A DNA stretch of 64,000 bases from Antedon bifida (lineage: Eukaryota > Echinodermata > Crinoidea > Comatulida > Antedonidae), in the NCBI GenBank assembly GCA_963402885.1, contig OY727102.1:12214001-12278000 (forward strand), read 5' to 3'. Below the pieces are notes generated by a model. That model did no database searches, was not told where the DNA came from, and saw nothing but the letters and a program-made list of their open reading frames with translations. Positions within the stretch are counted from its first letter, which is position 1. Each line of letters opens with the position of its first letter. A program made the position numbers and the translations under genes. Below are positions 46,401 to 63,880 of this stretch, piece after piece.

Positions 46401-49400
46401 CATATACTTTACATATACTGTGTCATATACTGGGAAATACTGTACATATACTTTGTCATACTGTACATTTACTGTGCAATGAGTATATTGCTTATAATAT
46501 ACATTAAAACTAATTAAAGATAAACACAATTCAAACAGTTTTAGTTTTGATATATTACTCAAATACTTATGTTTTATATTTAAAATCATATTTTTTTAAA
46601 CATTCAAAATATCTAGTGCATACATTTTTTAAACAGTTCATTCAAATGTGTTTTGATAGTGTTTATAACTATTGAGCTTTGCTAAATCTAGCCAGCTATT
46701 CAAACTTAGGGATTTTTGTTTATTTATTGTGGTGGGTTGTATTCAACATATTTGTATCACACCATACAGTATTTCTGGTCTCACTACATCATTTTTATTT
46801 TTTGTTTTCTTGTTGCTATGTCTGGTGGCGTTTGTCTTATCGGCATGCTTTAAACAAATTAACATGAAAGGCACTAAATGACGAATGATGACGCATTTTA
46901 GAGCTAGAAATAAGGTATCGAACAGCATGCTTGAAAAAGCTAGAAATTAAATTTGTATACAGAAATTCCAAATGCATACAAAGGCATAAAAATCATTAGT
47001 GTATGCATAAACAGTTTACGATAGAAAATACCTTCTTTGAGGTCAGAGGTAAGGTTTGTTGACCCGCGTTGTCAACTGTCATCATCGCGATACATCTTTT
47101 GAATCCGCGTTTTTCCCATCTGCACATAAGTTAAGTTCCTTCAAGGTTTTCAACTCATAGGTAAGTTTTTTTTTCTTTTGTATTACTGTTATTTATTTTT
47201 CATAAATGTCATAGCTCTGTATAGTGAACATTATTCAGCATTTGATTTCTATACTAATTTCTCATGTATCATGCTAATAAATTCTTTTTTTCAATAACTT
47301 ATGTTATGTTGTTTGGTTAATGCATGTTTGGTTTTGAATAATAACTCCTTATGTATGTTTTTTTACACTTATTAATGTGTTGTTTCCTTCCCTCCGCTTA
47401 GTTTTTTAATGATGCAAGAAATTGTGAGCAAAGAATGGTGCAATATATACAGGAATTAAATTCCCAATACAACCCAGTAGACTCAACAGAACAGCAATTA
47501 GATGACCTTATCATTGCAATGGAAGTAGGTCAAATCTTTTTCTTTATTTATTTTAAACTTTTATATCATTGATACAAATGATGCATTACAATTACAATTC
47601 TGATTTTTTGCGACAACCGTACAAAAAAAAAGTTTCATCTACATGACTTTGATATCTGAATCCCAAGGGCCTAGAATCAACCCACTTTCCAAACCAAACT
47701 CAATGATGTATGCGAATAGTACATTTATTTGATGTCATGAGTGCTAGGTCAAAGGTCGTCCAAAATCAAAAGATTCCTTTTAATGCCCAATTAGTATTCT
47801 TTCTACAAAATCAAACACAAAAACATTCTTAACATTTTTATTATCGTTTTCAGCTTTTTGCTTGTAAGCTATCATTATACTTTATCGTAACAAAATCTTT
47901 ATTTTTTAGAAAATGAAAGAGAATATTTTAAAACTGCAACCCGTCCTTTTAGAATTAAATAAGATAAGCCAACAGGTAGTGCCATTAAAGCAACGCAGAC
48001 AACCTCTTAATGGACGTATCGCAGTGTACGCGGTTTGCAGTTACTCTGGTATTGATGTAAGTATCATTCTTATAAAATTACTCTGTCAACCATGTTAAGC
48101 AAGCACTATATTGTTAAGTTACACTCCACATAAAGGTGTCCAAAAAGCTCCATGAGTACATTGGGTGGAGAAGTGTGCATTACAAATTCTGTTCAGAATT
48201 ATAACAGTGACTAGTTTTATTCATAAACCTTATTCCCTTAAACAAAAGGAGCTTAACATTTTAAAATACATAAAATTGTTTTTGACAGATATCTGTTTCA
48301 AGAGGTGAGAAGTGTGTTCTTCTAGACAATTCAGACAGACTGAAATGGAAGGTGATAAACACAGTAGGACGTGAGGGTACAGTCCCTGGCATTGTGTTCA
48401 TGATTCCGCCTCCATATGATGGAGCCATTCAGTTAGCAAAACAGTAAGTTCTCCATTCCAATATGGAAGGAAACAACTTCTGGCCTAATTAGACTATTAT
48501 TATGGAAACTGTTAATTGGTATATATACGTATGTATGTTTTGTTTATGTATTAATTCATATTGTTAATACATTCTACCTAAGGGACGTCCAAGCGATTAA
48601 AACAGCCCAAGCTGTGCATATGTATACACATGTTTGAGTGACTGCCATCAACATTTTTATTACTTAAAAAAAATTTTTTTTTTTTAACTTTTTTAAATCT
48701 TGACAGACTTGAGGTGAAATTTCAAGAATGCTTAACATTTTGGAGTACTACTTACACCAAGCTGATGCAGCGACGCCTTGAATTGACTGATTCTGCACAA
48801 GGCTCTATCACAACAACTGAAGAGAGGACTGTGAGAACAGTTAATGGTGAGTATAGAATTACTTGCGTTTACTTACTGTACTGTAGGACTATAATCTGTA
48901 TTCTAATGTGTGTGGAGATTGGCTGACCCCATAGATATAAGAAGTAGATGGTCAAATCTAACATAGTCCTGGCGCTGTGGGCATGACTTTGCTGTCATTC
49001 AATTGGCTTTCTTGTGAAACAAATTTCATTTTAGTGCATCCAAGTGTTATATCTAATAAATAATAGTACTTTTCACAATAGGTTGATAGGCTAATTTTTT
49101 TTTTTATTTTTTTTATTTTCTTGTAGAACAAACCATCACAATGTCTACTGTTACAGTTGAGCATAGCTCAGTCCCATCTATGCAAAAAGACACAGGTAAA
49201 TAATAAACACTCTTAAATCCCATATAACATAAACAAACTTGTATTATTACCCAACACAACCATTCTTTTTGTGGTCTATTTTTTATATTGTAAACAAATA
49301 TCGAACTCTATGAACACCGATAACTTTAAAAGAATAAGGATTTTCCAAATTTTCAAAAGTTATCAAATTTGTTAATTGAAATTGTATTATGAAAAGCAAA

Positions 49401-52400: not shown

Positions 52401-55400
52401 TTATTTTTTGAGATTGTTTTTTATCAAAAATATTTACTTTTTAAGGAGCTACAAAGAACTCTGCCACCATTCCAGACCGTCATTGACAAACTTGTGAAGA
52501 GTGCCATTATGGTGAAAAAGTTATCCCAGAAGGCACCGTTGCCAGATGACCATATTCTACAGAAGGATGTTAATGAGATTAACAATCGTTGGGACAATGT
52601 TTGTGTTCAGACCCACGAAAGGTAAGTACAGGCGGCAAAGAGTATTTACCTGTATAGGCTGCCTCTCTCATAGATTTTATGTGTCATGTGTTTGTTAAGA
52701 AATGTTATTAGGATACAAATATCAACAAAACTTAGTCTGGGACATACCCAAACTTATATGACTAGATTCCTCCAGTTCATCTCTCTGCATACAAGTATCC
52801 ATCTGTAGTACATCAATGTATGCGAGTGCTGGTCTTCCTTCAAAGAAGGATTAGAGCAGAATAAAACCTTTCTCTTGTTTCTCTATCTTGAGCATCCCTT
52901 TTCTTGTACCATATCTTGTCCATATGTCAATATTTCATATAAATTGTGGAATCTGTATATAACATATCCTTGTCTTAAGAAATTAGTAGATAATGCTTTT
53001 TAAAAAATTTGTTGAAGAAGTATTTATGTATTTTGAAAAATGAATTCAAATAAAACAAAATAATATTTCATTTAATAAAAAAGGTTAATGAGGCTAGACA
53101 TAGCAAGTGATAAACTACAAGAATTGGATGAATTGTTAACAAGAGAAAATAACTGGATATCAGAAGCAGCCGTTACTCTACTTAAATTTGAAATCATCGG
53201 CCATGATATGATGTCCGTACAGCAACAATACCAGGCTGCAAGAGTCTTTAATTCAGAGGTTGAAAACCGCAGACCAAAGATTGAGGATGTGCTACTTAAA
53301 GGCAGAGAATTTATTGAACAAGTAAAGGTAACTGAACTCGAATTCACTTATTAAAATAAGTTTTTAATTAGTTGACAATAATACATTGAAACATATCTGG
53401 TGTATAATGTGTAAAGCCTTTATGCACTTTACATTAAAAAAACAAAAAAAGAGAGAGCTTTTTCTGTAAAATTCAAACTGAAAAGACTAAAATTTTATTT
53501 AGTTAATGTATGTCAACCAATCAAAACCAATTTTTGTATTTTATGTGATTGGGATTTTTTACCCATTGGTTTCCTTGCAATAAATGAAATAAGAAAATTA
53601 ATGTTGGTTCTACAACTAGGTTTATGATGCAGCACAGGAGAACTACATGAAACAAGTTGACGAATATCATGACATGTCTACCTCAAAACGCCCTCGTCTC
53701 GAATCTGGAGCAGAAATAATCCAAAAAGAACTTGAAACATTCAAGACACGGTACGAGGAACTGTCAATGAATGTGACTGACAGAATTGAAGTCATTGGTT
53801 CGGTTGGAAAACAACTAAATGTAAGTTGTACATTGGTTCTTTTAGTTGTCTTTGCAAGAATATTCTTGTTAAAACATGAAGTTTTGATTATTCTCACAGG
53901 TATCAATCATAAGTGTTTTAAAGAGCCTAATTCTCTATAAAATGAATCTGAAAAGTCATTCTTTGTCTAAATATTCTATGCTTAAAAGAATTTGAATACT
54001 GGATAATATACATGCTTACCTACATGATTGGTTGTTGTAAGAAAAAATAATGTTTTGGGATGATACAATTTGATAAAAATGTTTTTACATGAAAAAGAAA
54101 GAGAAATATTACACTCATTGGTGGTGATTTAACTACACTACCTTCTAATGTGATGTATATTACAATACATATTGTAGTATACAGTGTTATGTATAATATT
54201 ATATACTACAATATGTTGATAACCACACAGAGTCATGTATATTATCTTCAGTGTTTGAATTACTAATTGACAATGTCACTGTAAGTAATAACAATACCCG
54301 CACCCACTTCAGTGTCTACTGCTTATTGCTACTATGGGTAAATCAATTGCCTGTGGTAGCAGACAGTGCCACTACATGATATGAACTTTCATGTTTAACA
54401 GCTACATAATAATATGCTATTGATGTTTTACCAAAAATACTAGTAGAATTAACAGCTTTTAATAGTATAGTCTTATGCTATTGGTGTTTTACAATTGTGT
54501 CCACAGGCATCTTAAAATTATCTTATTCTTGTGTTGGAGAAAGTATATGTACTAAATAGTATCTTTACAATAATGAGTAATACAGTGAACTCAAAACAAA
54601 ATCTTCTTCAGCAGCCAAATAATTCTCTGTTTGTTAAAATGCATTAATTTATGAGCCAACCCAAGTTTGTCTGGAGAAACTGTACTTTATTATTTAACAA
54701 TAACACATGCAATATATGTATCACCAATATTATACTTTATTACAGTTATAAATAATATATATCATCACATATTATTATTATTAACGTTCCATTTAAGTTA
54801 CATTTTCTGCATGGACATCTGAAAAACCTACACAAATTATTGTAATTTATTTGATCTCAAAATGCAATATTTGCTGCTATGATTTATGATTTAAATTTCT
54901 CATTGCAGAAAATGTTTCTTAATAATAATTGATCATTTTAACTATATCACCACAACAATCTGTAGAAATTAACTTTTATTCAATAATTTCATGAGTATAC
55001 ACATCCAAGAAGTATAGAAAAGTTTGCTGTTTTCTCTGGGGTATTTTTCTTTTACAGCTTTACGTTATTTTCTAATGGCAATACAGAATGATTCCATCCT
55101 CATTTTTAGTTGTTAGGTTTGCTATCATCTGTTTAATAATATACTTTAGAATTTAAATATTGTCTGCCTTGCTGATACCTCATTAGCATGTATGATATTT
55201 GAATATCAATTCCACCAAAATCAAAATGGCTTCCTGTCTGCCCAACGGAGAGCATGTGCAGAAGTGTCATTTTATGATGTTGGCAAACCTTTTTCCTGAT
55301 TGGCTAATTAAGTTTTGTTTTTCCTGATTTTATAAGGTAAGTGGTATGCTTGAATTGCTGTTCATTTTTCTATTTACCCTCCCTCTGCATGCCATAACAA

Positions 55401-58400
55401 TTCTATAGTATTGGATGTTTTAGTGATCATAAATTACTTGTAGCATGGTAAATAACTTCTTAAACATCCTGTAGCATGGAAAAGGCTAACTAATATTTCG
55501 CATGAAACAAGTATGTTTCATTAAGGTGTAAGATTTTTACATAAATACCTTTCTTGTTTTCTGTGCACAAAATGTTAGTACTTAACTATAAACTGTGGTA
55601 TATCTTGTTTCTGCACATTTTGCTATTGAAAAATGTTTTCCTTATACATTTTGTGTAACGGTGGTTGTAATAATCATTGAAACTTGTACTTTATTTGTGG
55701 TTTGGTAAACGATGTAATTTCTAACCTGTAATAAACTTGTGTGTATTCATTTCTTGTCCTTAATCTGGTTTGCAATGCAAAGAACTTTTTTTATTTATTT
55801 TTAAATGGTTAATGATTTGAGGTAGTTTCTTAATATATGTTTTAAATTGATTGTAGAAAATTGAGTTGAATGTAGAAATGATTAATTTAGATTGTAATTA
55901 ACTAATTTGATTTATATTTGTAGAATTATATAAAATACACATCCAATAAAAATGCAATTACCTTTTTTGATGAAGCTTTTTTCATTTTCCACAGATTGAT
56001 GTTGCAAATTTAAATCCGTTGGAAATCTCCTCTTTGTCTCCTATCCAAGTTGAGATGATACATAGAAGATTAATTCTTCATCAACCATCAATTAAACAAT
56101 TCATTGAATATCAAACTTATCCAAGAGGTTCACAATATCAATCAGGAACAAGTTGTCCTGAGACGATCTTACCAGCTTTATCACATGACACCAGGGTAGT
56201 AAGACCGAAGGAGAGACATCCTCCAGTTGGTCAGTTAAAGAAGCAGAAGTCACCATCAGTGATTAAAAAAAATGTTTCTTTTCCTGAAGTCCCAGTAATG
56301 GAAGAATTAGTGATAAGTACTCAAGAATGCAATGTGGATAGTATGGAGGTTCATCTATCACCAGCAATAGAATGCGTGGAGACTGTAAAAGGAAAGAAAC
56401 CCAAGAAAATCTCAAAAGACAACCAACCTTCGACCTCAGAAAAAAGTTCTTTGTTGTCAACTATCTCTAAGTGGTGGAAGTCATTAGATTCTGGGAATGA
56501 GCCTTCTTCTCCAACTGATGAATATGTGGTAATAACTACTCCAGTTGCTAATGAAGATACATTTCAATATCAATTGGACACTGTGAATGAAAATGTAAAT
56601 CGTCCTTCAGAATTAAAAATAACTAGAACAGAACTATCAAGAAAAGAGCAGATTTCTTCATCGGGTGATGAAGTAGCACTGAAGCCCAATTTGACACATT
56701 CAGAAGTTCATAAGACATCTTATTCCACTGACAGCAGCTCAGCAATAGAAGATTCACCAAAAACCAATTTAAAACCAAAAGTATCAACACAATTGAATGT
56801 TTCAAATAACAATCCAGAGCAGAATAAACAGAACCTAGATGTTACTTTGAAAGGTACACTTCACCAACATAGTAAAGGATTAATTTCTAAAGGGAAAGAT
56901 GATAAAAAACCTAAAAAGTCACCCATCAAAAAAGCTTCAAAAAGTGATACTGGAAAAGTAACAAAGAAAATGTTACCAAATAAACCAACTAAGAAAGAAA
57001 CTAAAATAAACACCACTGGTAAAGATATTGAAAACATACCAGTAGTAAAATCAATCACTCAAGTTGAAAATGAGCCATCATTGAAAATGTCAAGAAAGAA
57101 ACTTCCTGAGATAAAGAAATCTAATGATGACACAAAAGAAAAGAAAGTTTTAAAACATGTTAAAAAAGACTCATCCTTATTTACAAAAGGAAAGAAAGAG
57201 AAACAACTAAGTAAAGAAAAGCAGCCTGACAAAAATCCCAAGATAAAAAAAAAAGAAAGCTCAATAATGGCTTCATTCACAAGATTATTGGCACCATCAA
57301 AAGATGGTTCTTTAAAAGTGGATACCTCTGAGGATGAAAAAAGTATTCATAAAAAAGATGGTGGTGATTCCTTGATAACTATTGAAAACATAACAATAAG
57401 CCAAAATGGTCACACAGAAATTAATGGAAATAATGAACCAAGTATCCAAGAAATTCAATTAAAAGATACAAAACTAGACCAACAGGTATTTCCGAAAGAA
57501 TTTAAAGAAGAAGGAACAAATTCATCTTTAAACAATTCCAATATATTTGGTATTACATCAGTAGCAATCAGTGTCTCTGGTGGATCAAATAAACCTGTTG
57601 AAATTCCAGATAATATGGAACACCAGGTTGTATCAACAACGTACAAGATGACAAGTTCTACAATTCGTCCAATTGAGGAACATGAACAAGAAAATATGTT
57701 GTCAAGTTTCACACCTGGTTTAATATTGAATCCAAGACCTTCTGAATTGGAAAGCGGAACTCTTGTGCCACCAGTAACAACAGTGGAGAAACCATTGTTA
57801 GCATTAAACGTTTCTGGTGTTTCTGTATCTGCACAAGAGGAAACAACAAAAAAGAAAAAAGGAAAATATAGAATGGTTATCGAGAGTTCATCTATCATGA
57901 CAAAAGAGATTATCAGTGAACCATTTCATCCATCCACTGAATCCATTACTTCGTTAGGAAAACGATCAAATGATGTACATGGATCTCCTCAGGATATTGA
58001 GGAACACATTTCTTTCAAAGCTGTTCCCACTGAAAATGTTTCACCAGAAGTCATACCTGTTGTGCATGCGTGTATTGAGAATAAAAAGAAAGAGAACACT
58101 TCTTTGGAATTTCAAATTCCGTCAATAACGTCTGAGAGTGATCACCAGATAATTAAAGAAGAGACTATAGTTCCATCTACAAAGACTTCAGTTGAGTTCA
58201 AGATGCCACAAATTACTAAGGTTAATGAAAATATGATCATGCAAAGAAAGTTAATAATAAGTGTAGATGATATAATCCAAATTCCAAGAAAATCTGTAGA
58301 GGATATTTCTAGTGAATATTGTGATGACATCCAAAAACTTCTTGCACTTGAAGAAGGAGATCATGTTCCTACACCAGAAACTGGTAATGTTATAATTGAC

Positions 58401-61400
58401 GAAACAATCCAGAGTAGGGCTGTATCACCTATTTCTTTTGATGTGAAATTTCCCCTTTCTGATAATACTGCTGAGAGTATCACTGAAGATGTATGTGATC
58501 AGACAGAAGTGTTACCATCTGAACTAAATATTGACTTGTCAGTGTTTATTGAGTCACCATCAATTAATCCAACAACAAATGAGCAAAATGTGGATCAGTT
58601 GGCAGTTTATGGAGAATCAGAAGATGTGATATCTGTAAAAATTGATGGATCAGATTTAAATTCCAGAAATGAAACACCTGTTCTTTCTGATACTGAAATT
58701 GATGCCCACCCATGTCATGATTCTCTACAACAAGTACAAGAAGAATCTTGTAGTCAAATAATAAATTCCAGTAGAAGTAACTTACAATTGCTTGAAGGTT
58801 TCAGTAAACTGGAACCTAACCTAGCACCTGACACTGAAACCAATCAAGAAAACAGTTTTGAAGATAATGCCACCGAATATGTCATAATAGATTCTGATGA
58901 TAAGAATGTTTCAGGCATACCCAAAGAAACCATATACAACCAAGATAGAGATGGTACTAGTAATAGTCTACCAACCATGATTGGAACTTTTATGAAAGAT
59001 AATATTGGTAAATTCTTTAAAGACTTTCCAAGTCTTTCAGATGAAGGTACAGCTTCTCCACAAGATCTTTCAACAGAAGAGTTACACATTTCTGAGGAAA
59101 GTATTACTGAAAAACTTAAGTCACCAACGGCTGAATTTAATCTTAAAGATAAACTGTATCGGTCAACATCACTGCAACATCAACCAGATCAGAAGATTGA
59201 GTCAGATGGGCATAAACATGACCAGGTGGATAGTGATCATGAGAATGTTAAGATTAAAAGTGAACATTATGAAAAGAAGTCAAAAAGTGTAGAAGAAAAG
59301 TTTTCCTTTTATCAAAAAGCGCTTGGCGTATTTTCTATGTTTAAAGAGGAAAAACAAGATGAGCAACCAGAACAAATTCCGTCTTCTCCAAAAGAACCAA
59401 AACATAAACAAAATGTGGAAAAAGATGTTGTGTTTGAAAAGGAACCAAAGGAAAAAGAATTAAATATACCACAAAAAGCAATTGACTTGTTTTCAATATT
59501 CAAAGGTGTAAAGCAATTTGTTACAAAAGAACCAGGAGAACATAGCAAAAAGGAGGAACCAAAACATGTTAGTATGAGGGAAGAAGAACATTCCAAACAA
59601 GAAACAAAACCAGAGCAAACATATGTTGAGAGCATCCAATTCACTGAACTTACAGCAGAACAAGAACATGTTATGAAGGAACTTATAAATGATCAAAAGA
59701 TTCCACCAAGTGTCAAAAATATTCAAGAAAATCTAATTGATGAATTTGTAATAGATCCTAAAGTTGTGGAACCAGTTTTTCAAACCCCTGTATTCCAGAA
59801 GTCTGAACTAGTTATGAAAGACCCAGAATATTCACATCATGTTGAAGAGGGACTGAGACATCAAAAAGAACCTCTGGAAGAAAATACTCTACTAAGTGTA
59901 GGAAACTTTAGAGAAAATCCAATTGATAAATTGGTAATAGATCCTAAAGTTGTGGAACCAGTTTTTGAAGCCCCTGTATTCCAGAAATCTGAACATGTTA
60001 TGAAAGAACCAAATCATGTGGAAGAGAGACTGGACGATGGAAAAGAACCTCTGGGCGAAAAGATTCCACTAACTGTAGGAAACATTGAAGAAAGTCCTAT
60101 TGATGAATTTGTAATAGATTCTAAAGTTGTGGAACCAGTTTCTGAAACACCTGTACTCCAGATGTATGATCAGGTGATTCATTCAGTCTCAATTGAAGAT
60201 AAGTATGTATTCACCAGCAAACCTGGTCAAGCTGATTCTGTATTTGTTGATCCATATTGGAAAATGGTAAGTTGTGGTCTAGAATGAAAGCCAATTTGTT
60301 TGTGTTCTTTTGTATATACCTATGTTAAAAATAGACATTTTATTACACTTCTCTTTTTCTAAAATGTTACTGAGAAAAAGTTACTGTTAATGATACATTT
60401 TTACTGCAGTAAAAGTTTAATGTTGCAGGTCAAGACAGAAATGGCTCTATATGCTAATTATTTTCTCAATGAGAATTGTTAATCTTTTTCTTTAGTAGCA
60501 AAAATAGTAAGTAAAAATAGAGGAAATGCTGATTATGTTTTATTACCATTTTATGGTGCAAATTTCAGTGTATTGTAATTAAACCTATTTAACTTGGTAT
60601 ATCAGGCAACCACTACATTAGGTGAGAATTAGGCAGTGGAATTTATTTACATATTGACAAGGCGATGCTTTGTGAGTTGAATCTCAGAATTCTTGGATTA
60701 AGTGTGTGAAGCCAAGGCTTGTTAATAGTTATATAGTTGATGTAATATGAATTTATTTGAATAAATGTTTTAATGGTTGTATTATTTGATCTCTTTAGAG
60801 ATTGCTTGTGTTGTTTTTCTTATTTGCTTTAAACTATTCATTACAAATAATACTAGACAACATTTTACATAAAACATTTTAGCTATTTCTAAACAATACA
60901 AAATAAAAAATAAAAACATGAAATAACATTATTCTTTTAGATTCCTACCAAAAAAAACCCAGAAACCAATTGTATTTTGTTCTCATTTATTGAATGTTGC
61001 ATTTTGTAAACATTTTCATCCATTTGTAAAGTTTTAATTAAGGTAAAGGTAGATGGTTTTTTGAACATTTTTACGATTTTATTGGCTTGAATTTTCTAGG
61101 CGGAGTATGATCGTGAATACCGTGTTGTATGTCAGGTTGTCAGTGACCAGTTTTATTGGGTGACAATTACGTTACAAAAGCTGAAAAATCTTGAACCAAT
61201 CAGTAATGATTTGCAAACTTTAACATTCCAAAAAGATAAAATTAAGGTTGGTTTTTTCAAAATTTATATTAATCAACATAATTTATATTAATCTAAACGA
61301 TCAATTTCATTAGCCATCTTCAAGCAAAATACAAAAAATATTAGCAACTGTGAAAGGTGAAATATTTATGTTTTTTTTTCTTTTTAGATATATATTATTT

Positions 61401-63880
61401 TTATCCATTTTGTTATAATTACTTAAATTACTTTCTTAGAGGTCATTTTCATCCATTTTTAACAACTTATTGTCCAAGAACATTCCAATATCCCATATAT
61501 TCACTGTTATTATTTTCACTATCATTTATAATTTGACTTTTTATAATATATTTTTTAGTCTTTCATTGAGGATATCTCATACCATGAAGTGCCAATATCA
61601 GAGACTACTGCAAGGGTTGAGACGTTTATTGAATTGAACAAAGAAAAACATATGAAGCCCGAGCAACAACAAGATCTAAAGGGAAAGGTCAAGGAATTAC
61701 AGACTGGATACCGTGAGGTCGTAACCATAGCGAACAACAGAATGCGAAGTATTGATGAAAACCATCAGCAGCTTATGATTGAAAAGAAGGAATTGGTAAG
61801 TTGTGAATCAATTGACCAATCAAAGAGCTGGATGGCTCAATGCCAGGAATCTACTGGTATTTGAAAATGAGACAAAACGTCCGATGGAAAGTTAGACTTG
61901 AAGATCCCGCTACCAAGATAAAATTGTTTTATCTTTTATTAATATTGGTTATTGGAATTGAATTCAATGTTAATAATTCTTTAAAATGTTTTTGTAGAAC
62001 TTAATTGATAAGAACTTCCAAGACGTTTATTCTAATGGACAACTACTACTCAAATGGCTGTCAGACACAGAACATGCAATGGGATCATCACAGCCTCAGA
62101 GTGAACAGGTTCAGCCTCTTAATGAACAGCTCAACAAAATGAAGGTGATGTCTTATTATCTTCGAGTTACTCTCAGTATTACCATCATTTTCATTAGTAC
62201 AGAAAAAAAGGAATATAATCTCTATAATCTGATATTGTATCTTTTAAAACCACCATGCTTATAATGAATACAAATAATAGATTGGGGGAATACAGTACTT
62301 CTGAAACAAATCATCCTTTTAAGTTAAAATCATCTTGTTAGGTTAGAAATATTTTGTTACTTTTTGCATGTGCCTTCTGAACTAAAAATATTTAACTTTT
62401 TGTATTAATCCTAGGCTTTGAGAGATGACATTAATGCTCATGAACAGCCACTAAAAACCACAGTTGAAAACATCCAAAAGTTTGTGAACACCAGCGGTGA
62501 TAAACTAGCGCAGCCAAATCATGCCACACTACAGGATATACAGAAAAAACTATACAGTCGTTTTGACTTGCTTCAGAACCAAGCAGATGAACGTGTCAAT
62601 CACCTCACCTCTGCTTTAGACTACCTCCACAACTTTGAGCATGACCTTGCAAAGTTCGAGCACTGGCTTGGAAAGACGATGCACGATATCGATGGATTGC
62701 TCAGCGATCCTGGTCGTGATGTAAGCATTTTGAAACGACAACAGATGCAACTTCAAGGGATCTCTTCCGATATGAATGTACGCAAGTCACATTTGGCAAT
62801 GGTGCAAGATAGTGGACAGCGGTATATTGAAGATGCAAAGGTTAGCAGAGATGTTTAATTGTCTGGCTTCCTCATGTTCTAATTAGTGATTGTCTTCATG
62901 GAGATGTTTATATGTTTTATCTTCTAATTTAACTTCATCATTCTATATTTTTAGGTCTACAAACAAATGCTACACGAATTTCGCCAAACCGCCCTCCCAA
63001 GTCAGTTCAACCGAGTGTTTAGCGAGGCACCAGATTCAACTGGAATCCAAGATCGTCTGCTTCATCTAAATGAAGAATTTGAACACTTGGAACACAAGTG
63101 TGACAGTGCTGGCAAGAGGTTGGAAGTTCTTATTAAGAAACATTTGCATTACAACAAAGGTCTTGCATCTGTGACAAACTGGTTAGATACAACAGAGAAA
63201 GCAATGGCAAAACTCATGCAAGAACCTATTGCAGCAGAGACATCAACTGTCCAAGAACAGGCAGAGAAATTTAAGGTTTTTGTTTTTTTAAAAAGATTGT
63301 AATACAAATTTATTGTAGCAGAAACAAAAGTAGTTCATCATTCTATTTAGCTGTCAAAAGAGCAATTGTAATTGGAATAGTCTGCTATGATGTTGTAAGT
63401 TACTTTAGTTTGATATTTGATAAATCTTAACATTAATCTTTACAGGCATTCAATGATGATGTAATCAAACACTCCAAAGATGTTGAAGACTTGAAATATA
63501 CAGGAAGAGAGCTGACTGATGCCCAGCCAGAGGTTAAACCTGATGTCCAAAGGACCATTGGTAAGTTTCTTGTTCAATTCTTTTTTTTTTTACCGATTGG
63601 ATGTGGAATATTGATATATATATAATATTTGGATAAAATTGTTTATGATCAATATATAATTGTAGATGATGTTAGTGAGCGTTACAACAGACTTGAACGT
63701 TTACTGACGGAGAGAAGCAGTACTTTGCATCGAACCCTTATGAACTCTCGTAGCCTTCAGGACAGCCTTAACAGCCTCATCATATGGTTGGAAGAGAAAG
63801 AGGATGCATTTGATAAGCTGGACTCTGCAAAGGTACTAGTTAAGCGTGACAACTTACAAGAACAAGTGCAATATCACAAG
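4266..63880 (+). CDS. MACF1: Spectraplakin (MACF1/dystonin/Shot family), 5' part; gene continues beyond the window
   Basis: The protein is a giant cytolinker. CH1 and CH2 at the N-terminus bind F-actin, the plakin domain binds membrane and junction partners, a spectrin-repeat rod follows, and the family's EF-hand and GAS2 microtubule-binding end would lie beyond the window. I joined 37 exons from first exon 1a into one continuous frame of 3352 codons. All introns used are GT/AG and every phase matches. Approximate residues: unique N-terminus 1-47, CH1 48-155, CH2 156-265, plakin domain 300-1390 with SH3 near 815-880, low-complexity insert 1393-2816, rod from 2817. Landmark strings include [38 protein letters not shown] and [16 protein letters not shown]. 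Vertebrates have two paralogs (MACF1, DST); this looks like the single pre-duplication gene, so the symbol is a family label. Family is certain; exact ortholog naming is inference. Confidence 0.95.
5198..5258 (+). CDS. MACF1: Alternative first coding exon (YExxLxxWK type) of the spectraplakin
   Basis: The ATG at 5198 (A at -3, in-frame TGA at 5120) opens a 20-residue frame ending [10 protein letters not shown] plus one base, then GTAGGA. Phase 1 matches exon 2 exactly and would give [20 protein letters not shown]. Vertebrate dystonin isoform 1 and fly Shot have an N-terminus of the form YE..L..YKDERD at this junction, so the spacing and Lys-Asp join look conserved. It lies only 0.8 kb downstream of exon 1a. 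There is no transcript evidence here; the donor is acceptable, not perfect. Confidence 0.65.
5912..6012. repeat. Dispersed-repeat fragment with TTTATTCGAATAAACGCC words
   Basis: It contains TTATTCGAATAAACGCC, GGTGTTTATTCGAGG and a poly-G run in an otherwise AT-rich intron. The short inverted and direct echoes of ATTCGA and AAACGCC look like the end of a decayed DNA transposon. No complete element is seen. Confidence 0.35.
6896..7229. repeat. Diverged direct duplication, about 205-bp spacing
   Basis: A block starting GGGGTTGACACACCACA (about 6900) and containing ACCTTATATTGGGTATTGA, AGTGGCATTGACAA and AACATAACAACAA recurs in the same order from about 7103. The two copies have diverged by small indels. 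Noncoding. Confidence 0.7.
7850..8072. repeat. 26-bp tandem repeat, about 8-9 units
   Basis: The unit is AATATCAATCTCATAATTTG followed by GATTAA, repeated with few changes. Intronic and AT-rich. Confidence 0.85.
8167..8344. mobile_element. Small TIR element (MITE), about 180 bp
   Basis: The left end ATTTACACAGACGAGCGATA is mirrored at the right end, where the reverse complement reads ATTTACACAGACAAGCGGTA (18 of 20). The interior is GC-richer than the intron around it. No open frame and no clear target-site duplication. Confidence 0.65.
9746..9938. mobile_element. hAT-like MITE, 193 bp, with 8-bp target duplication
   Basis: The left end CAGTTGCGTAACG pairs with the right end, whose reverse complement is CAGTGGCGTATCG (11 of 13). 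The flanks are TACCCCTG (9738-9745) and TACCGCTG (9939-9946), an 8-bp duplication with one mismatch. CAGTGGCG-type ends and 8-bp duplications are typical of the hAT superfamily. It is non-autonomous; no transposase is visible. Confidence 0.7.
11172..11394. mobile_element. Foldback element with 64-bp inverted arms
   Basis: The left arm (11172-11235) and right arm (11332-11394) are near-perfect inverted copies sharing GAGCGAGATATAACTCGAA and AGCCCTTTCTCC, around a spacer of about 96 bp. RNA across it would form a long hairpin. It is probably a MITE in intron 1; no clear target duplication. Confidence 0.8.
12541..13252. repeat. 18-bp minisatellite, about 39 units
   Basis: The unit is GAGCGTGGGATTATATTC with variants. 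The array has blocks: irregular units with TTTGCGCG at the start, a TTCGAG block near 12650-12800, TTTGAG/TTTAAG units, then a homogeneous TTAGAG block near 13030-13250. Because 18 is divisible by 3, several frames stay open on both strands; these repetitive frames (IRAWDY-like) are not genes. Confidence 0.95.
14826..14917. repeat. Perfect 46-bp tandem duplication
   Basis: CTGTAATAATTATGTAACAT through TTTTTTTTCTCC occurs twice in a row without visible change, so it is probably recent or polymorphic. Confidence 0.9.
15002..15166. mobile_element. MITE family A, copy 2
   Basis: The left end TTTTGACAAAAAATGTGATG, the core ATATCACTACCATATTTGGG and the right end AATAGTGTAGACAAAGCTTA match the other copies. 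The extreme left TIR is eroded. Confidence 0.75.
15838..15880 (+). CDS. Weak candidate third first exon joining exon 2
   Basis: An ATG in a strong context (CCACCATGA) opens [14 protein letters not shown] plus one base, followed by GTATGT. Phase 1 fits exon 2 and the join codon would be TAT (Tyr), giving YERDEVQ. The surrounding 150 bp is richer in G+C and the frame stays open upstream to about 15712. I recognise no homologous N-terminus, so this may be coincidence. Confidence 0.22.
18415..18565. repeat. Probable dispersed repeat (SINE-like segment)
   Basis: It contains GTGAGACCTCTTCAGTCAAA, GGTTCTTTAAAGTGCACATG and ACACTGGACCTACGGTTTA, a composition unlike the flanking intron and resembling repeats common in marine invertebrate genomes. 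No termini could be defined. Confidence 0.4.
19764..19803. repeat. (GAA)n microsatellite
   Basis: About 12 uninterrupted GAA units. The poly-Leu reading on the minus strand is an artefact of the repeat. Confidence 0.95.
20002..20063 (+). CDS. MACF1: Spectraplakin exon 2, start of CH1
   Basis: It encodes (D)[20 protein letters not shown], the first helix and first actin-binding segment of CH1. The acceptor is TTTTCCAG and the donor AAG|GTTAGT. It enters in phase 1 and leaves in phase 0. It is the common target of the upstream first exons. Confidence 0.97.
20618..21093. repeat. 17-bp minisatellite, about 19 near-identical units plus a degenerate tail
   Basis: The unit is GAGCGGTGCTGTTGAAT, almost invariant from 20640 to 20937, then decaying copies (GGTGGTGTAAGTTGAATA and similar) to about 21093. 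Since 17 is not divisible by 3 and the unit has no stops on the minus strand, all three minus frames read the same 17-residue period. These are not genes. Confidence 0.95.
21378..22192. mobile_element. 815-bp TIR element with perfect 27-bp ends, flanked by TA
   Basis: The left end CCGTATATTTCGGTGTATAA continues to 27 bp and is matched exactly by the right end at 22166-22192. TA flanks both sides (21376-21377 and 22193-22194), as in Tc1/mariner-type insertion. The inner sequence TGCGTCTTATA recurs near 21440, 22091 and 22150. G+C is above the intron average. No transposase frame, so non-autonomous. Confidence 0.8.
23800..24600. repeat. Satellite-like tandem array, five units of about 165 bp
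   Basis: The anchor GGGGCTATGCCCTTTCAGTC, or its variants, recurs at about 23916, 24087, 24250, 24410 and 24575 (spacing 171, 163, 160, 165). Between anchors come AGATAAA, CCAATTGAAAGG, CCTAGATTAGAA and TTTTTGTGGACTTA in constant order. Noncoding. Confidence 0.8.
25040..25300. repeat. Dispersed repeat, inverted relative of the 27.3-27.5 kb segment
   Basis: It contains GTTATTTGATT, AGTCAACTACTA and GCATTTTGGGTAA. Their reverse complements (TAGTTGACT, TCAAATAAC, TTACCCAAAATGC) occur at 27393-27485. The order and spacing are only partly kept. Confidence 0.4.
25926..25990. repeat. Short tandem repeat, three units of about 24 bp
   Basis: Units of the form CCCTTAATCTACAGTGGACC repeat three times with changes, in a C-rich patch unusual for this intron. 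Confidence 0.6.
27330..27490. repeat. Dispersed repeat, inverted relative of the 25.04-25.3 kb segment
   Basis: It contains ATAACCGTAAAATCAG, TTACCCAAAATGCAATGG and TAGTTGACTCAAGG, then TCAAATAAC, which match the reverse complement of the 25.1-25.3 kb block. Ends were not resolved. Confidence 0.4.
30833..30922 (+). CDS. MACF1: Spectraplakin exon 3, CH1
   Basis: Thirty codons, phase 0 to 0, including [20 protein letters not shown], the CH1 signature helix. The acceptor is TTTCTTTCAG; the donor GTAATT is somewhat weak. Confidence 0.97.
30923..31879 (+). other. Intron 3, no feature
   Basis: AT-rich intron of 957 bp. I see nothing beyond splice sites. Confidence 0.7.
31880..31957 (+). CDS. MACF1: Spectraplakin exon 4, CH1
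   Basis: Twenty-six codons, phase 0 to 0. It encodes [20 protein letters not shown] and FLEQKK, matching the family pattern PREKGRMRFHRLQNV. Acceptor CATTTTAG, donor AAG|GTATAA. Confidence 0.97.
32050..32162. mobile_element. MITE family A, copy 3 (right end lost)
   Basis: The intact left end AAAGCTCGGTCTACACTATC runs into AAACTTTATGTGAC and the core ATATCACTACCATATTTGGG. The right terminal repeat is missing, cut where a SINE-like tail begins. Confidence 0.8.
32166..32255. repeat. SINE-like tail remnant
   Basis: TTTTGGCCAAGATAAAAATC, ATGGTACTGAGTGAGC and AGGGATTAGAACCTG resemble the tRNA-related end segments of SINEs in marine invertebrates. A similar GCCTAAGGATGTAA...ATGGTACAGGCTTGAATCC stretch occurs near 40790. 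It is too decayed to assign a family. Confidence 0.35.
32527..32619 (+). CDS. MACF1: Spectraplakin exon 5, end of CH1
   Basis: Thirty-one codons, phase 0 to 0, containing [20 protein letters not shown] and ending WTIILHFQ, the last CH1 helix that joins CH2. Donor CAA|GTAAGT. Confidence 0.98.
32694..32847. mobile_element. MITE family A, copy 4 (near full length)
   Basis: The left end AAAGCTTTGTCTACACTATC, two copies of the ATATCACTACCATATTTG core and the right end AAACTAGACTGAGCTTA. It inserted 75 bp after exon 5 and is in the same orientation as copy 3. Confidence 0.8.
34384..34532. repeat. Three-unit tandem repeat, about 55 bp
   Basis: GGGAAGTTGTAAATAGTGAT followed by AATGGTGCCAATCA occurs three times with slightly different spacers (about 34384, 34443, 34497). 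Confidence 0.8.
38216..38449 (+). CDS. MACF1: Alternative first exon 1b, acylated N-terminus, CH2-only isoform
   Basis: Seventy-eight codons, starting [13 protein letters not shown] and ending DCESRHSIQ. Gly2, Ser6 and Lys7 fit an N-myristoylation signal and Cys10-Cys11 a palmitoylation site. A basic patch LKRRNKRR near residues 39-46 is followed by SPLTP, a possible proline-directed phosphosite. An in-frame TAA ends three codons before the ATG, so this is a true start. The donor CAG|GTAAGA is phase 0 and joins exon 6 at 40492, skipping all CH1 exons. Vertebrate dystonin isoform 3 has the same design: a MGN-type acylated first exon and CH2 without CH1. Predicted role: a membrane-anchored form with reduced actin binding. 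Homology is inferred from architecture. Confidence 0.88.
38450..40491 (+). other. Intron between exon 1b and CH2, no feature
   Basis: AT-rich 2.0-kb intron. I see no exon, element or tandem repeat. Confidence 0.7.
40492..40661 (+). CDS. MACF1: Spectraplakin exon 6, start of CH2
   Basis: It encodes [31 protein letters not shown], then [31 protein letters not shown] is the CH2 signature. Phase 0 in, phase 2 out. It is the shared splice target of exon 5 and exon 1b. Confidence 0.98.
40780..40835. repeat. SINE-like tail remnant
   Basis: CATCTTGCCTAAGGATGTAA, then ATGGTACAGGCTTGAATCCG, resembles SINE 3' segments with a decayed B-box-like GAATCC. It is intronic and has no body. Confidence 0.35.
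41092..41204 (+). CDS. MACF1: Spectraplakin exon 7, CH2
   Basis: It encodes [20 protein letters not shown] and [17 protein letters not shown], the middle of CH2. Phase 2 in, phase 1 out. Confidence 0.98.
41667..41818 (+). CDS. MACF1: Spectraplakin exon 8, end of CH2 and linker
   Basis: It encodes [20 protein letters not shown] and DVFPKVP, the last CH2 helix, then a Ser/Val/Gln linker to the plakin domain. Phase 1 in, phase 0 out. Confidence 0.97.
42215..42331 (+). CDS. MACF1: Spectraplakin exon 9, start of plakin domain
   Basis: Thirty-nine codons, including [20 protein letters not shown], the first spectrin-like helix. The donor GTCTGT is weak but the frame and phase fit. Confidence 0.94.
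42579..42805 (+). CDS. MACF1: Spectraplakin exon 10, plakin domain spectrin helices
   Basis: It encodes a helical segment with [20 protein letters not shown] and [19 protein letters not shown], typical spectrin helix pattern (W in helix A). Leaves in phase 2. A MITE copy starts 46 bp after the donor. Confidence 0.97.
42852..42925. mobile_element. MITE family A, half copy 5
   Basis: CTCTTTCTACACTATCAACA, then AATATGGTAGTGATATGACA, are the left end and inverted core of the family. It lies directly behind exon 10. Confidence 0.6.
43027..43195 (+). CDS. MACF1: Spectraplakin exon 11, plakin domain
   Basis: Fifty-six codons of helical sequence, including [20 protein letters not shown] and [11 protein letters not shown]. 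Acceptor TTTTTTTCAG. Confidence 0.96.
43328..43603. mobile_element. MITE family A, degenerate copy 6
   Basis: The left end is AAGCCCTGTGTAAACTATCA. About 200 bp on comes the inverted core ATGGTAGTGATATGACA, then GTTTTGTCACATAA. The interior has unrelated sequence and a poly-A run, so this may be an element with an insertion. Confidence 0.5.
43661..43749 (+). CDS. MACF1: Spectraplakin exon 12, plakin domain
   Basis: It encodes [20 protein letters not shown] then FEGWKDLLK. Phase 0 in, phase 2 out, completed by the A at 44071. Confidence 0.95.
44071..44221 (+). CDS. MACF1: Spectraplakin exon 13, plakin domain
   Basis: It encodes [20 protein letters not shown] and a linker, ending [16 protein letters not shown]. 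Phase 0 out, donor TCG|GTGAGT. Confidence 0.96.
44548..44916 (+). CDS. MACF1: Spectraplakin exon 14, plakin domain core
   Basis: One hundred twenty-three codons, the largest plakin-domain exon, with [20 protein letters not shown] and [17 protein letters not shown]. This string is one of the most conserved in plakins. Confidence 0.98.
45089..45193 (+). CDS. MACF1: Spectraplakin exon 15, plakin domain
   Basis: Thirty-five codons, [20 protein letters not shown] then [15 protein letters not shown], a continuous spectrin helix B/C. Phase 0 on both sides. Confidence 0.97.
45426..45521 (+). CDS. MACF1: Spectraplakin exon 16, plakin domain
   Basis: Thirty-two codons, [20 protein letters not shown] then [16 protein letters not shown] is the helix A pattern of the SH3-bearing repeat. 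Confidence 0.97.
45522..47401 (+). other. Intron 16
   Basis: A 1.9-kb intron holding the minisatellite above. A G+C-richer stretch near 47040-47160 contains no convincing exon. Confidence 0.65.
46205..46475. repeat. Minisatellite of TACTGTGTCATA / CTGTACATATACT words
   Basis: Alternating words such as CTGTACATATACTGTGTCA and CATATACTGGGAAATACT fill about 270 bp of the 1.9-kb intron between exons 16 and 17. Open frames across it are artefacts. Confidence 0.9.
47402..47524 (+). CDS. MACF1: Spectraplakin exon 17, plakin domain
   Basis: Forty-one codons, [20 protein letters not shown] onward, helix ahead of the SH3 domain. Acceptor CCTCCGCTTAG. Confidence 0.95.
47910..48056 (+). CDS. MACF1: Spectraplakin exon 18, helix and first half of SH3
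   Basis: Forty-nine codons. After [11 protein letters not shown] the SH3 fold starts: [16 protein letters not shown]. The usual ALYDY motif reads AVCSY, as in plakins, whose SH3 lacks the normal polyproline pocket. Confidence 0.97.
48289..48443 (+). CDS. MACF1: Spectraplakin exon 19, second half of SH3
   Basis: It encodes [40 protein letters not shown] and the return to helix. KWKV and VP...F.IPPP match the plakin SH3. Leaves in phase 2. Confidence 0.98.
48707..48846 (+). CDS. MACF1: Spectraplakin exon 20, helix after SH3
   Basis: It encodes [20 protein letters not shown] and [11 protein letters not shown], completing the repeat that hosts the SH3, then a Thr-rich tail. Phase 1 out; this starts the run of phase-1 exons. 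Confidence 0.96.
49127..49195 (+). CDS. MACF1: Spectraplakin exon 21, small phase 1-1 cassette
   Basis: Sixty-nine nt, (E)[19 protein letters not shown] then KDT, Ser/Thr/Val-rich and without helix pattern. Both junctions are phase 1, so skipping keeps frame. Confidence 0.88.
49897..50025 (+). CDS. MACF1: Spectraplakin exon 22, phase 1-1 cassette
   Basis: One hundred twenty-nine nt, containing [20 protein letters not shown] and [15 protein letters not shown]. Acceptor CCCCGCTTCCTTCAG is strong. A 42-bp part (49917-49958) has a diverged copy in the intron at 51837-51878. Phase 1 on both sides, so optional use is possible. Confidence 0.85.
50534..50641 (+). CDS. MACF1: Spectraplakin exon 23, phase 1-1 cassette
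   Basis: One hundred eight nt, [20 protein letters not shown] then [15 protein letters not shown], acidic start then a helix. Also phase 1 on both sides. The 674-bp intron after it shows nothing. Confidence 0.88.
51316..51470 (+). CDS. MACF1: Spectraplakin exon 24, plakin domain helices
   Basis: It encodes [20 protein letters not shown] and [16 protein letters not shown]. Phase 1 in, phase 0 out. Confidence 0.94.
51635..51801 (+). CDS. MACF1: Spectraplakin exon 25, plakin domain
   Basis: It encodes [20 protein letters not shown] and [20 protein letters not shown], a spectrin helix with the typical W. Phase 2 out. Confidence 0.96.
51916..52054 (+). CDS. MACF1: Spectraplakin exon 26, plakin domain
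   Basis: It encodes [20 protein letters not shown] and [13 protein letters not shown]. The 114-bp intron before it is the shortest in the gene and carries the exon 22-like segment. Confidence 0.95.
52060..52260. repeat. Probable dispersed repeat with TTATATAGCGCCTAA
   Basis: GTTATATAGCGCCTAATTCTC and CTCAAAGTCC resemble a repeat start seen also at about 10211 (TTATATAGCGCTTAAC). Ends undefined. Confidence 0.35.
52446..52621 (+). CDS. MACF1: Spectraplakin exon 27, end of plakin domain
   Basis: It encodes [20 protein letters not shown] and [15 protein letters not shown], a spectrin helix B with the RWDNVC pattern. Phase 2 out. Confidence 0.96.
53084..53327 (+). CDS. MACF1: Spectraplakin exon 28
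   Basis: Eighty-one codons, [39 protein letters not shown] and a second helix. Acceptor (AATAAAAAAG) has a poor pyrimidine tract, but phase and continuity with exon 27 are exact. Confidence 0.92.
53620..53820 (+). CDS. MACF1: Spectraplakin exon 29
   Basis: Sixty-seven codons, [20 protein letters not shown], a basic KRPR and a helix [19 protein letters not shown]. Phase 0 out, so it can join either exon 30 or exon 31. Confidence 0.93.
53821..55994 (+). other. Intron before the giant exon (2.2 kb)
   Basis: AT-rich with short palindromes near 54150-54220. A G+C-richer patch near 55220-55345 ends in a GTAAGT but has a stop in the ATG frame, so I do not call an exon. Confidence 0.6.
55995..60266 (+). 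CDS. MACF1: Spectraplakin exon 30, giant 1424-codon optional exon
   Basis: A single open frame of 4272 nt between a good acceptor (TTTTCCACAG at 55994) and donor ATG|GTAAGT. Phase 0 on both sides; skipping it joins exon 29 to 31 in frame. It begins [20 protein letters not shown], then is rich in Lys, Glu, Ser, Pro, Thr and Ile. Basic stretches rich in KK lie in exon residues 290-420. Few aromatic clusters break the disorder: [32 protein letters not shown] and two QKA..FS.FK segments. Near the end, three copies of a ~60-residue unit with [10 protein letters not shown] start at about residues 1249, 1311 and 1370. No plakin repeats or coiled coil seen. Vertebrate MACF1b and dystonin-b place plakin repeats between the plakin domain and rod, so the position is similar but the content is not. 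Coding status is certain; function unknown. Confidence 0.92.
59640..60170 (+). repeat. Three tandem ~60-residue units inside exon 30
   Basis: [16 protein letters not shown] strings begin at 59739, 59925 and 60102 (periods 186 and 177 nt). The nucleotides around AAAGTTGTGGAACCAGTTTT are almost identical in copies 1 and 2, which suggests recent duplication. Each unit also has PVFQKSE.VMK or a variant. Confidence 0.9.
60267..61099 (+). other. Intron after the giant exon, no feature
   Basis: AT-rich 833-bp intron; nothing beyond splice sites. Confidence 0.7.
61100..61246 (+). CDS. MACF1: Spectraplakin exon 31, start of the rod
   Basis: Forty-nine codons, [20 protein letters not shown] then [20 protein letters not shown]. 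The acceptor TTTTCTAG is phase 0 and so accepts exon 29 or 30. Confidence 0.93.
61559..61795 (+). CDS. MACF1: Spectraplakin exon 32
   Basis: Seventy-nine codons, including [20 protein letters not shown] and [16 protein letters not shown], a spectrin-type helix pair. Phase 0 both sides. Confidence 0.95.
61998..62144 (+). CDS. MACF1: Spectraplakin exon 33
   Basis: Forty-nine codons, [32 protein letters not shown]. The LLKWL.DTE pattern is the start of a spectrin repeat. Confidence 0.95.
62415..62840 (+). CDS. MACF1: Spectraplakin exon 34, spectrin repeats
   Basis: One hundred forty-two codons, with [20 protein letters not shown] and [20 protein letters not shown]. Helix A with W, heptad spacing. 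Phase 0 both sides. Confidence 0.97.
62955..63275 (+). CDS. MACF1: Spectraplakin exon 35, spectrin repeat
   Basis: One hundred seven codons, [20 protein letters not shown] and [20 protein letters not shown], one complete repeat unit. Donor AAG|GTTTTT is weak. Confidence 0.96.
63446..63560 (+). CDS. MACF1: Spectraplakin exon 36, spectrin repeat
   Basis: It encodes [20 protein letters not shown] and [18 protein letters not shown], then phase 1. Confidence 0.96.
63666..63880 (+). CDS. MACF1: Spectraplakin exon 37, last exon seen; rod continues
   Basis: It encodes [20 protein letters not shown] and [20 protein letters not shown], spectrin helices B/C and a new helix A. Donor AAG|GTATGT, phase 0. 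The remaining rod and the C-terminal domains are outside the window. Confidence 0.96.

Follow-up and report, generated by a model that had tools for sequence, protein, structure and literature searches.

The question raised by this locus is what a spectraplakin may place between its plakin domain and its spectrin rod when plakin repeats are not detected there. In the window analysed (64,000 nucleotides of the crinoid Antedon bifida, contig OY727102.1, positions 12,214,001 to 12,278,000 of the forward strand; coordinates below are those of the window, continued past its end where so stated), this position is occupied by a single exon of 4.3 kb (55995-60266) with 1424 uninterrupted sense codons. 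The giant exon is probably a plakin-repeat slot without plakin repeats, a real coding exon that would serve as a flexible, charge-patterned linker and docking segment. The rod beyond it contains a unit repeated ninefold, which is more striking than the giant exon itself.

The giant exon and its position in a spectraplakin gene

The coordinates, length and phase-0 flanks of the 1424-codon exon in the first-pass annotation were exact on recheck. The open frame is not a chance occurrence, because the longest open frame in 200 first-order Markov sequences of matched composition did not exceed 198 codons. The acceptor (tttcattttccacag followed by att, at 55995) and the donor (aaaatg followed by gtaagt, at 60266) were evaluated by a generic splice-site score written for this analysis, with six acceptors and six donors compared. 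The giant exon has the top score of each six, 4.12 for its acceptor (-0.80 to 0.59 for the other five) and 4.08 for its donor (1.46 to 3.03 for the other five), and neither score is matched by any of the 213 GT or 331 AG sites internal to the exon, which supports a genuine exon. Low-complexity sequence without known domains or relatives would also be expected of an exonised transposable element, or of an unrelated gene lying within an intron. Either origin is very improbable, as the giant exon joins each neighbour in phase 0, correlates with the spectrin exons in synonymous codon usage (r=0.70 over 57 codons), and has itself as its single match in the whole assembly (four candidates scored).

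The joints to both neighbours are in phase 0 (end of the upstream exon at 53820, start of the downstream exon at 61100), so either inclusion or skipping of the giant exon keeps the frame. The symmetric flanks to which attention had been drawn are therefore present but not special, the next three rod exons (61100-61246, 61559-61795, 61998-62144) being likewise phase 0 to 0. Alternative inclusion is plausible by analogy, because an insert at or close to the same slot is one of the differences within isoform pairs of other animals, namely Gouania, Sus and Odocoileus (dystonin), Mustelus (MACF1) and Daphnia. That the giant exon is instead constitutive, a permanent linker of head and rod in every transcript, is a less probable alternative that deserves consideration: its splice sites outscore those of the compared neighbours, but the isoform pairs and the possibility of in-frame skipping argue the other way. 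A third arrangement, in which read-through of the donor ends a shorter isoform in the intron, with the giant exon as its last exon, has a precedent in BPAG1e and an in-frame stop just past the donor (Table 1), but is quite improbable given that this donor is the top-scoring of the six and that the rod continues in frame.

By homology, the giant exon belongs to a spectraplakin gene, the one found here, where it follows the final exon of the plakin domain and precedes the rod. A tandem calponin-homology (CH) actin-binding region was found by tblastn, the N-terminal part of fetched spectraplakins matching at 19995-41746; the plakin domain contains an SH3 that matches PF17902 (53 bits at 48286-48408, and 21 bits, just below cut-off, at 47982-48065); the spectrin-repeat rod, ninefold extended, was found by homology; and EF-hands and a GAS2/GAR domain were found by homology at approximately 149.0-150.6 kb in continued coordinates, with up to 82.6% identity. 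The exon at 53620-53820 was compared with a profile hidden Markov model (HMM) of the segment that precedes the slot in four vertebrate proteins (pig, Gouania, Mustelus, Heptranchias) and one Daphnia protein. It scored 34.9 bits, versus a maximum of 7.6 bits among its shuffles (486 of 500 scored) and a best of 5.3 bits for the gene's own rod model; by this profile, it is the homologue of the segment preceding the slot. In Daphnia, a disorder-prone segment with a plakin repeat sits between the homologue of this exon and the stretch aligned to the exon at 61100 (the cut being placed by eye), and the short isoform of Daphnia also lacks the homologue of exon 53620-53820. The vertebrate inserts align one spectrin repeat further on than the slot, a correspondence that is approximate because spectrin repeats resemble each other and the crinoid gene has one fewer there.

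A protein search with the giant exon itself gave no match at E<=10 among 7989 candidates scored (783 to 2492 amino acids in length). Searches with a rod stretch and a plakin-domain stretch covered proteins of 2749 to 8748 amino acids; the plakin-domain stretch gave no hits, and the 80 matches of the rod stretch named arthropods, molluscs and vertebrates, with no echinoderm among the names. Given these length ranges, orthologues of the full length predicted for this gene were never candidates. In the literature, as covered by titles and the first parts of abstracts, no echinoderm spectraplakin, plakin-repeat-free slot exon or multiplied rod was found described.

Plakin repeats, disorder and intermediate filaments

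The translation of the giant exon matched no Pfam family at E<=10. Two plakin-repeat HMMs, both built from the plakin repeats of fetched spectraplakins, gave best scores of -2.8 and -3.6 bits on the exon, under the medians of those shuffles that scored (-2.1 for 79 of 100 and -2.0 for 93 of 100), whereas the same models gave 133.8 and 114.1 bits on a Daphnia control and 16.4 and 26.5 bits on the insert of Gouania. The claim that the exon has no plakin repeats was thus upheld by the HMM scan that had been proposed as its check. The giant exon lies between plakin domain and rod, as a plakin repeat region does, and shows none of the tandem plakin/plectin repeats (PF00681). Across the 315.6-Mb assembly, PF00681 had no matches at E<=10 and a mollusc plakin-repeat sequence had none, both searches being run without a genome known to match. 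It is unlikely that the exon is a plakin-repeat region degraded past recognition by profiles: the slot is the same, insect and mollusc proteins have many weak repeats, and the Gouania dystonin insert keeps only the low scores given above, but the giant exon scores below its own shuffles and its tandem unit is 59 residues, versus 39 positions in the Pfam plectin-repeat model.

Twelve proteins were chosen out of the 80 fetched spectraplakins to span taxa, and at least one plakin-repeat stretch was found in 11 of them, the bivalve Potamilus prediction (4830 residues) having none. There are 25 to 31 stretches each in Hermetia, Bactrocera, Mizuhopecten and Biomphalaria, and one in Daphnia, within this slot. 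The first-pass annotation had offered an invertebrate-specific replacement as one possibility, which is contradicted by the presence of plakin repeats in five of the six arthropod and mollusc proteins examined, including Daphnia in this very slot. What stands is a giant plakin-repeat-free exon at the plakin-repeat slot, plausibly a lineage-specific module, where restriction to a lineage is to be read within the length-limited protein searches described above.

The predicted product of the giant exon is composed of 11.2% S, 11.0% E, 10.7% K and 7.0% P, with S, E and K making up one third, which confirms the low-complexity composition rich in K, E, S and P that had been described. Disorder is likely as judged from sequence and from AlphaFold2 run without alignment on the two halves of the exon product, which yielded no usable model: mean pLDDT was 30.9 and 36.4, and pLDDT of 50 or more was reached by 38 of 712 residues of the first half, mainly the first 27, and by none of the second half. 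On the TOP-IDP scale, the mean is 0.199 for the giant exon and 0.116 for a folded plakin-domain control. Among other features considered, recurrent amphipathic mini-helices seen by eye were rejected (8 clusters versus a shuffle mean of 9.95), as was a short recurrent motif (3 occurrences versus 1.48 in shuffles, with 104 of 500 shuffles as high), and an SxIP-type motif was not used, its one match being about what composition predicts by our estimate.

PF00038 (INTERMEDIATE FILAMENTS) had four matches over the assembly at E<=0.01, three of them on one locus (two above cut-off) and a weak one on C12. Only at this locus (C15:15823800-15833200) does an intermediate-filament gene exceed the Pfam cut-off, and it is followed on the same strand by an open frame that we take to be a lamin tail. 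No cytoplasmic intermediate filament was detected in the assembly by PF00038 at this threshold. PMC9145010 states that the plakin repeat originated as an intermediate-filament contact in early Bilateria, and also that arthropods without cytoplasmic intermediate filaments may retain plakin repeats, as reported for the honey bee. Because arthropods can retain the repeats, the link between absent repeats and absent cytoplasmic intermediate filaments is suggestive only.

An origin outside Bilateria, with plakin repeats never gained, was considered for the assembly and ruled out by its crinoid mitochondrial genome. This genome (C27:1-15844; 15,844 bp) was annotated with gene names assigned by eye, and ARAGORN predicted 26 tRNA genes, none of them Phe. 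In cox1, AAA is presumably read as asparagine, at sites that we take to be conserved asparagines, which would be the echinoderm code. The frame read as nad4L sits between nad4 and nad5, away from cox1. The base composition of the cox1 strand is A 26.4, C 11.4, G 15.4 and T 46.8%, nearly equal to that of the crinoid Comaster schlegelii (26.73/11.38/15.89/46.00; PMC8820819). Among the references of PMC8820819 is one whose title refers to a unique rearrangement of nad4L in crinoids, and PMC7947835 states that gene order varies among crinoid mitochondria.

The ninefold rod and other features of the gene

The rod was traced downstream of the window through 80 kb plus a further 50 kb of contig. Its first unit, of 11 exons and about 849 residues, is present nine times in tandem (C15:12276415-12322659, from window position 62415 onward), with copies that start at 62415, 67680, 73882, 79160, 84329, 89023, 94498, 99257 and 104085 in continued coordinates and have conserved exon lengths and phases with protein identity of roughly 25-45%. 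Clustering places equivalent open frames into families with 17, 10, 4, 3, 2 and 2 members, at a spacing of approximately 5 kb. Since no DNA similarity among copies was found at E<=1e-6 except for one 61-bp pair, the copies are old and not an artefact of assembly. A scan for the 11-exon signature by length and phase (426, 321, 115, 218, 318, 167, 160, 205, 236, 234 and 147 nt) found 91 exons on the gene's strand, mostly in repeating order, versus two on the reverse strand; the scan parameters had been tuned on this very gene, and the resulting list includes fused and mistyped exons and omits others. When 11 selected spectraplakins were searched with a model of exons a and b built from the nine copies, each showed a single strong match, at 95.7 to 162.8 bits, with second-best scores of 33.0 to 49.0 bits. 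A tree of 20 rows contained a branch, with support of 83/85 (under the star level of the program), that set all nine copies apart from the vertebrate rows and from those of arthropods plus molluscs.

A rough chain of exons from 61100 to 151028 predicts 9521 residues, a length that is only rough because the chain holds tiny exons at 112-125 kb regarded as spurious. Adding the giant exon and the residues ahead of it, put at some 1400, brings the estimate for the whole spectraplakin to approximately 12,000 residues. Exons are split or fused among the copies at 67680-68297, 69614-70146, 73882-74631, 84905-85340 and 99909-100344 (continued coordinates), the types of change being division of the 426-nt exon into 141+285 and fusion of d with e, a with b, and b with c; these changes suggest gains and losses of introns after the rod was duplicated.

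The features of the gene that lie in the window are collected in Table 1. Between the CH1 and CH2 exons, a possible alternative first exon (38216-38449; donor gtaaga) begins with what we take to resemble a myristoylation/palmitoylation motif. An isoform that starts there would be without CH1, a domain also lacking in the Shot-PC isoform as described in PMC9320987. The window contains minisatellites at 12531-13249 (18-bp unit, 40.2 copies), 20617-20934 (17-bp unit, 18.7 copies) and 46206-46474 (units of approximately 21 bp, 10 copies), and a search of its 64 kb against Rfam gave no matches. Other PF17902 matches were found on C16, C1, C12 and C9; that on C9 (2065500-2065637) is within an open frame reported as 3586 residues long, of which 1046 residues were seen to contain spectrin-like repeats and SH3, and which is presumably beta-heavy spectrin encoded in a giant exon.

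Table 1. Exons and sequence features of the Antedon bifida spectraplakin gene within the window
Feature	Position	Strand	Basis
First half of actin-binding region, four matched stretches (putative CH1)	19995..32634	+	tblastn homology
Second half of actin-binding region, three matched stretches (putative CH2)	40447..41746	+	tblastn homology
Plakin-domain spectrin-repeat exon	44521..44913	+	tblastn
Plakin-domain SH3, split over two exons	47913..48444	+	PF17902
Upstream exon, last plakin-domain-proximal segment (...GKQLN), ends in phase 0, donor aat followed by gtaagt	53620..53820	+	profile HMM
Giant exon, 1424 codons, phase 0 to 0, low-complexity and rich in S/E/K/P, plakin repeats undetected	55995..60266	+	frame, Pfam, HMMs, Markov control
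Lys-rich basic block, residues 283-432, net +27 in 150 residues	56841..57290	+	reached by 0/2000 shuffles
Acidic block, residues 768-917, net -30 in 150 residues	58296..58745	+	reached by 26/2000 shuffles at window 150
In-frame tandem repeat, period 177 bp (59 residues), 2.6 copies	59695..60162	+	Tandem Repeats Finder
In-frame stop 18 bases past donor; read-through would add six residues, then end the protein	60285..60287	+	
Downstream exon (...KDKIK), starts in phase 0, first rod exon past giant exon	61100..61246	+	correspondence with Daphnia and vertebrates by alignment only
Rod exon type j, 237 nt, phase 0 to 0	61559..61795	+	signature scan
Rod exon type k, 147 nt, phase 0 to 0	61998..62144	+	signature scan
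Rod exon type a, 426 nt, start of copy 1 of ninefold unit	62415..62840	+	open-frame clustering, signature scan
Rod exon type b, 321 nt, copy 1	62955..63275	+	tblastn, exon a+b model; signature scan placed shorter 62955-63118
Rod exon type d, 215 nt, copy 1	63666..63880	+	signature scan

Proposed role and comparison with known proteins

The rod of a spectraplakin would join its head, which contacts actin and adhesion sites, to its tail, which contacts microtubules. With the giant exon included, the N-terminal actin/plakin head is predicted to be set off from the spectrin rod by a flexible, charge-patterned chain of 1424 residues; with the giant exon skipped, the head would be joined to the rod in frame. 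Beside a rod of perhaps 90 spectrin repeats, as estimated from its length, such a chain would add little reach, but it may let the head swivel, uncoupling it from the rod, and offer weak electrostatic contacts. The lysine-rich basic block is the best candidate for a microtubule-binding part. For the Drosophila isoform whose slot is filled, PMC9320987 proposes an actin-independent role in supporting microtubule bundles.

Several observations weigh against this interpretation of the giant exon. Its GC content by codon position is 0.475/0.324/0.225, and the last of these values differs from the 0.399 of the spectrin exons, such that codon usage is related and not identical. Its strong splice sites agree equally well with constitutive inclusion and are uninformative on optional use. 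The 80 fetched spectraplakins gave no tblastn match at E<=1e-3 on the giant exon or its two immediate neighbours, for which reason the upstream exon was tested by profile; and no orthologue of the giant exon was found within the lengths searched. Both genome-wide negatives for plakin repeats lack a matching control genome, and an empty answer alone shows nothing, although the intermediate-filament gene and this gene's own plakin SH3 (53 bits) were both recovered with the same search tool. The composition scale and a charge-hydropathy plot separate the giant exon weakly from the folded control, and hydrophobic clusters are not above shuffles (427 of 500 equal or exceed them). The acidic extreme is reached by 187 of 2000 shuffles at a window of 100 and by 1328 of 2000 at a window of 50, so that it is significant at the longest window alone and only the basic block is firm. 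The copies of the 59-residue repeat have dN/dS of 1.30, 0.84 and 1.83 on 42 to 59 codons; on these few sites no constraint on the letters is visible, and the internal repeats do not demonstrate purifying selection.

Tentatively, and with somewhat less confidence than in the linker itself, it may be proposed that a crinoid lineage lost plakin repeats in a setting with no detectable cytoplasmic intermediate filaments, put a giant disordered linker in the exon thus freed, and extended the adjoining rod through ninefold tandem duplication of the 11-exon unit, to arrive at a protein of approximately 12,000 residues built for length and flexibility and not for binding of intermediate filaments. A slot kept without repeats, in a genome in which the only intermediate-filament gene found is lamin-like, would separate the role of the slot from that of the repeats. 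The locus also allows the dependence of plakin repeats on cytoplasmic intermediate filaments to be examined in a natural experiment, for which the honey bee, reported in PMC9145010 to retain repeats although its phylum lacks these filaments, is the counter-case. The ninefold rod represents a second extreme, informative on the possible length of a cytoskeletal cross-linker and on the steps by which it may be reached.

Giant nesprins resemble this gene in having very long spectrin-repeat rods, and differ from it in lacking plakin and GAR domains and in having a nuclear-envelope anchor. Among spectraplakins, Drosophila Short stop likewise carries a large insert centrally, after the plakin domain and before the spectrin rod, in isoform PH alone (PMC9320987); this insert is a plakin repeat region, whereas the giant exon shows no detectable plakin repeat. 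The same paper calls the plakin repeat region of neuronal Shot functionally unexplored and its mammalian counterparts little known. The long isoform of Daphnia pulex has a slot segment of approximately 250 residues with one plakin-repeat stretch, versus 1424 residues without any in the giant exon, and its difference from the short isoform also includes the homologue of exon 53620-53820. The vertebrate dystonin-b and MACF1b inserts are isoform-specific, of about 1750 to 2070 residues, and unlike the giant exon they begin with plakin repeats, weak in the isoform of the fish Gouania. In the pig dystonin insert (2069 residues), the plakin-repeat matches stop approximately 380 residues in, and the remainder, compared past an arbitrary cut at 550, resembles the giant exon in composition. 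As judged from this resemblance, a long disorder-prone stretch at the slot is not unique to the crinoid gene.

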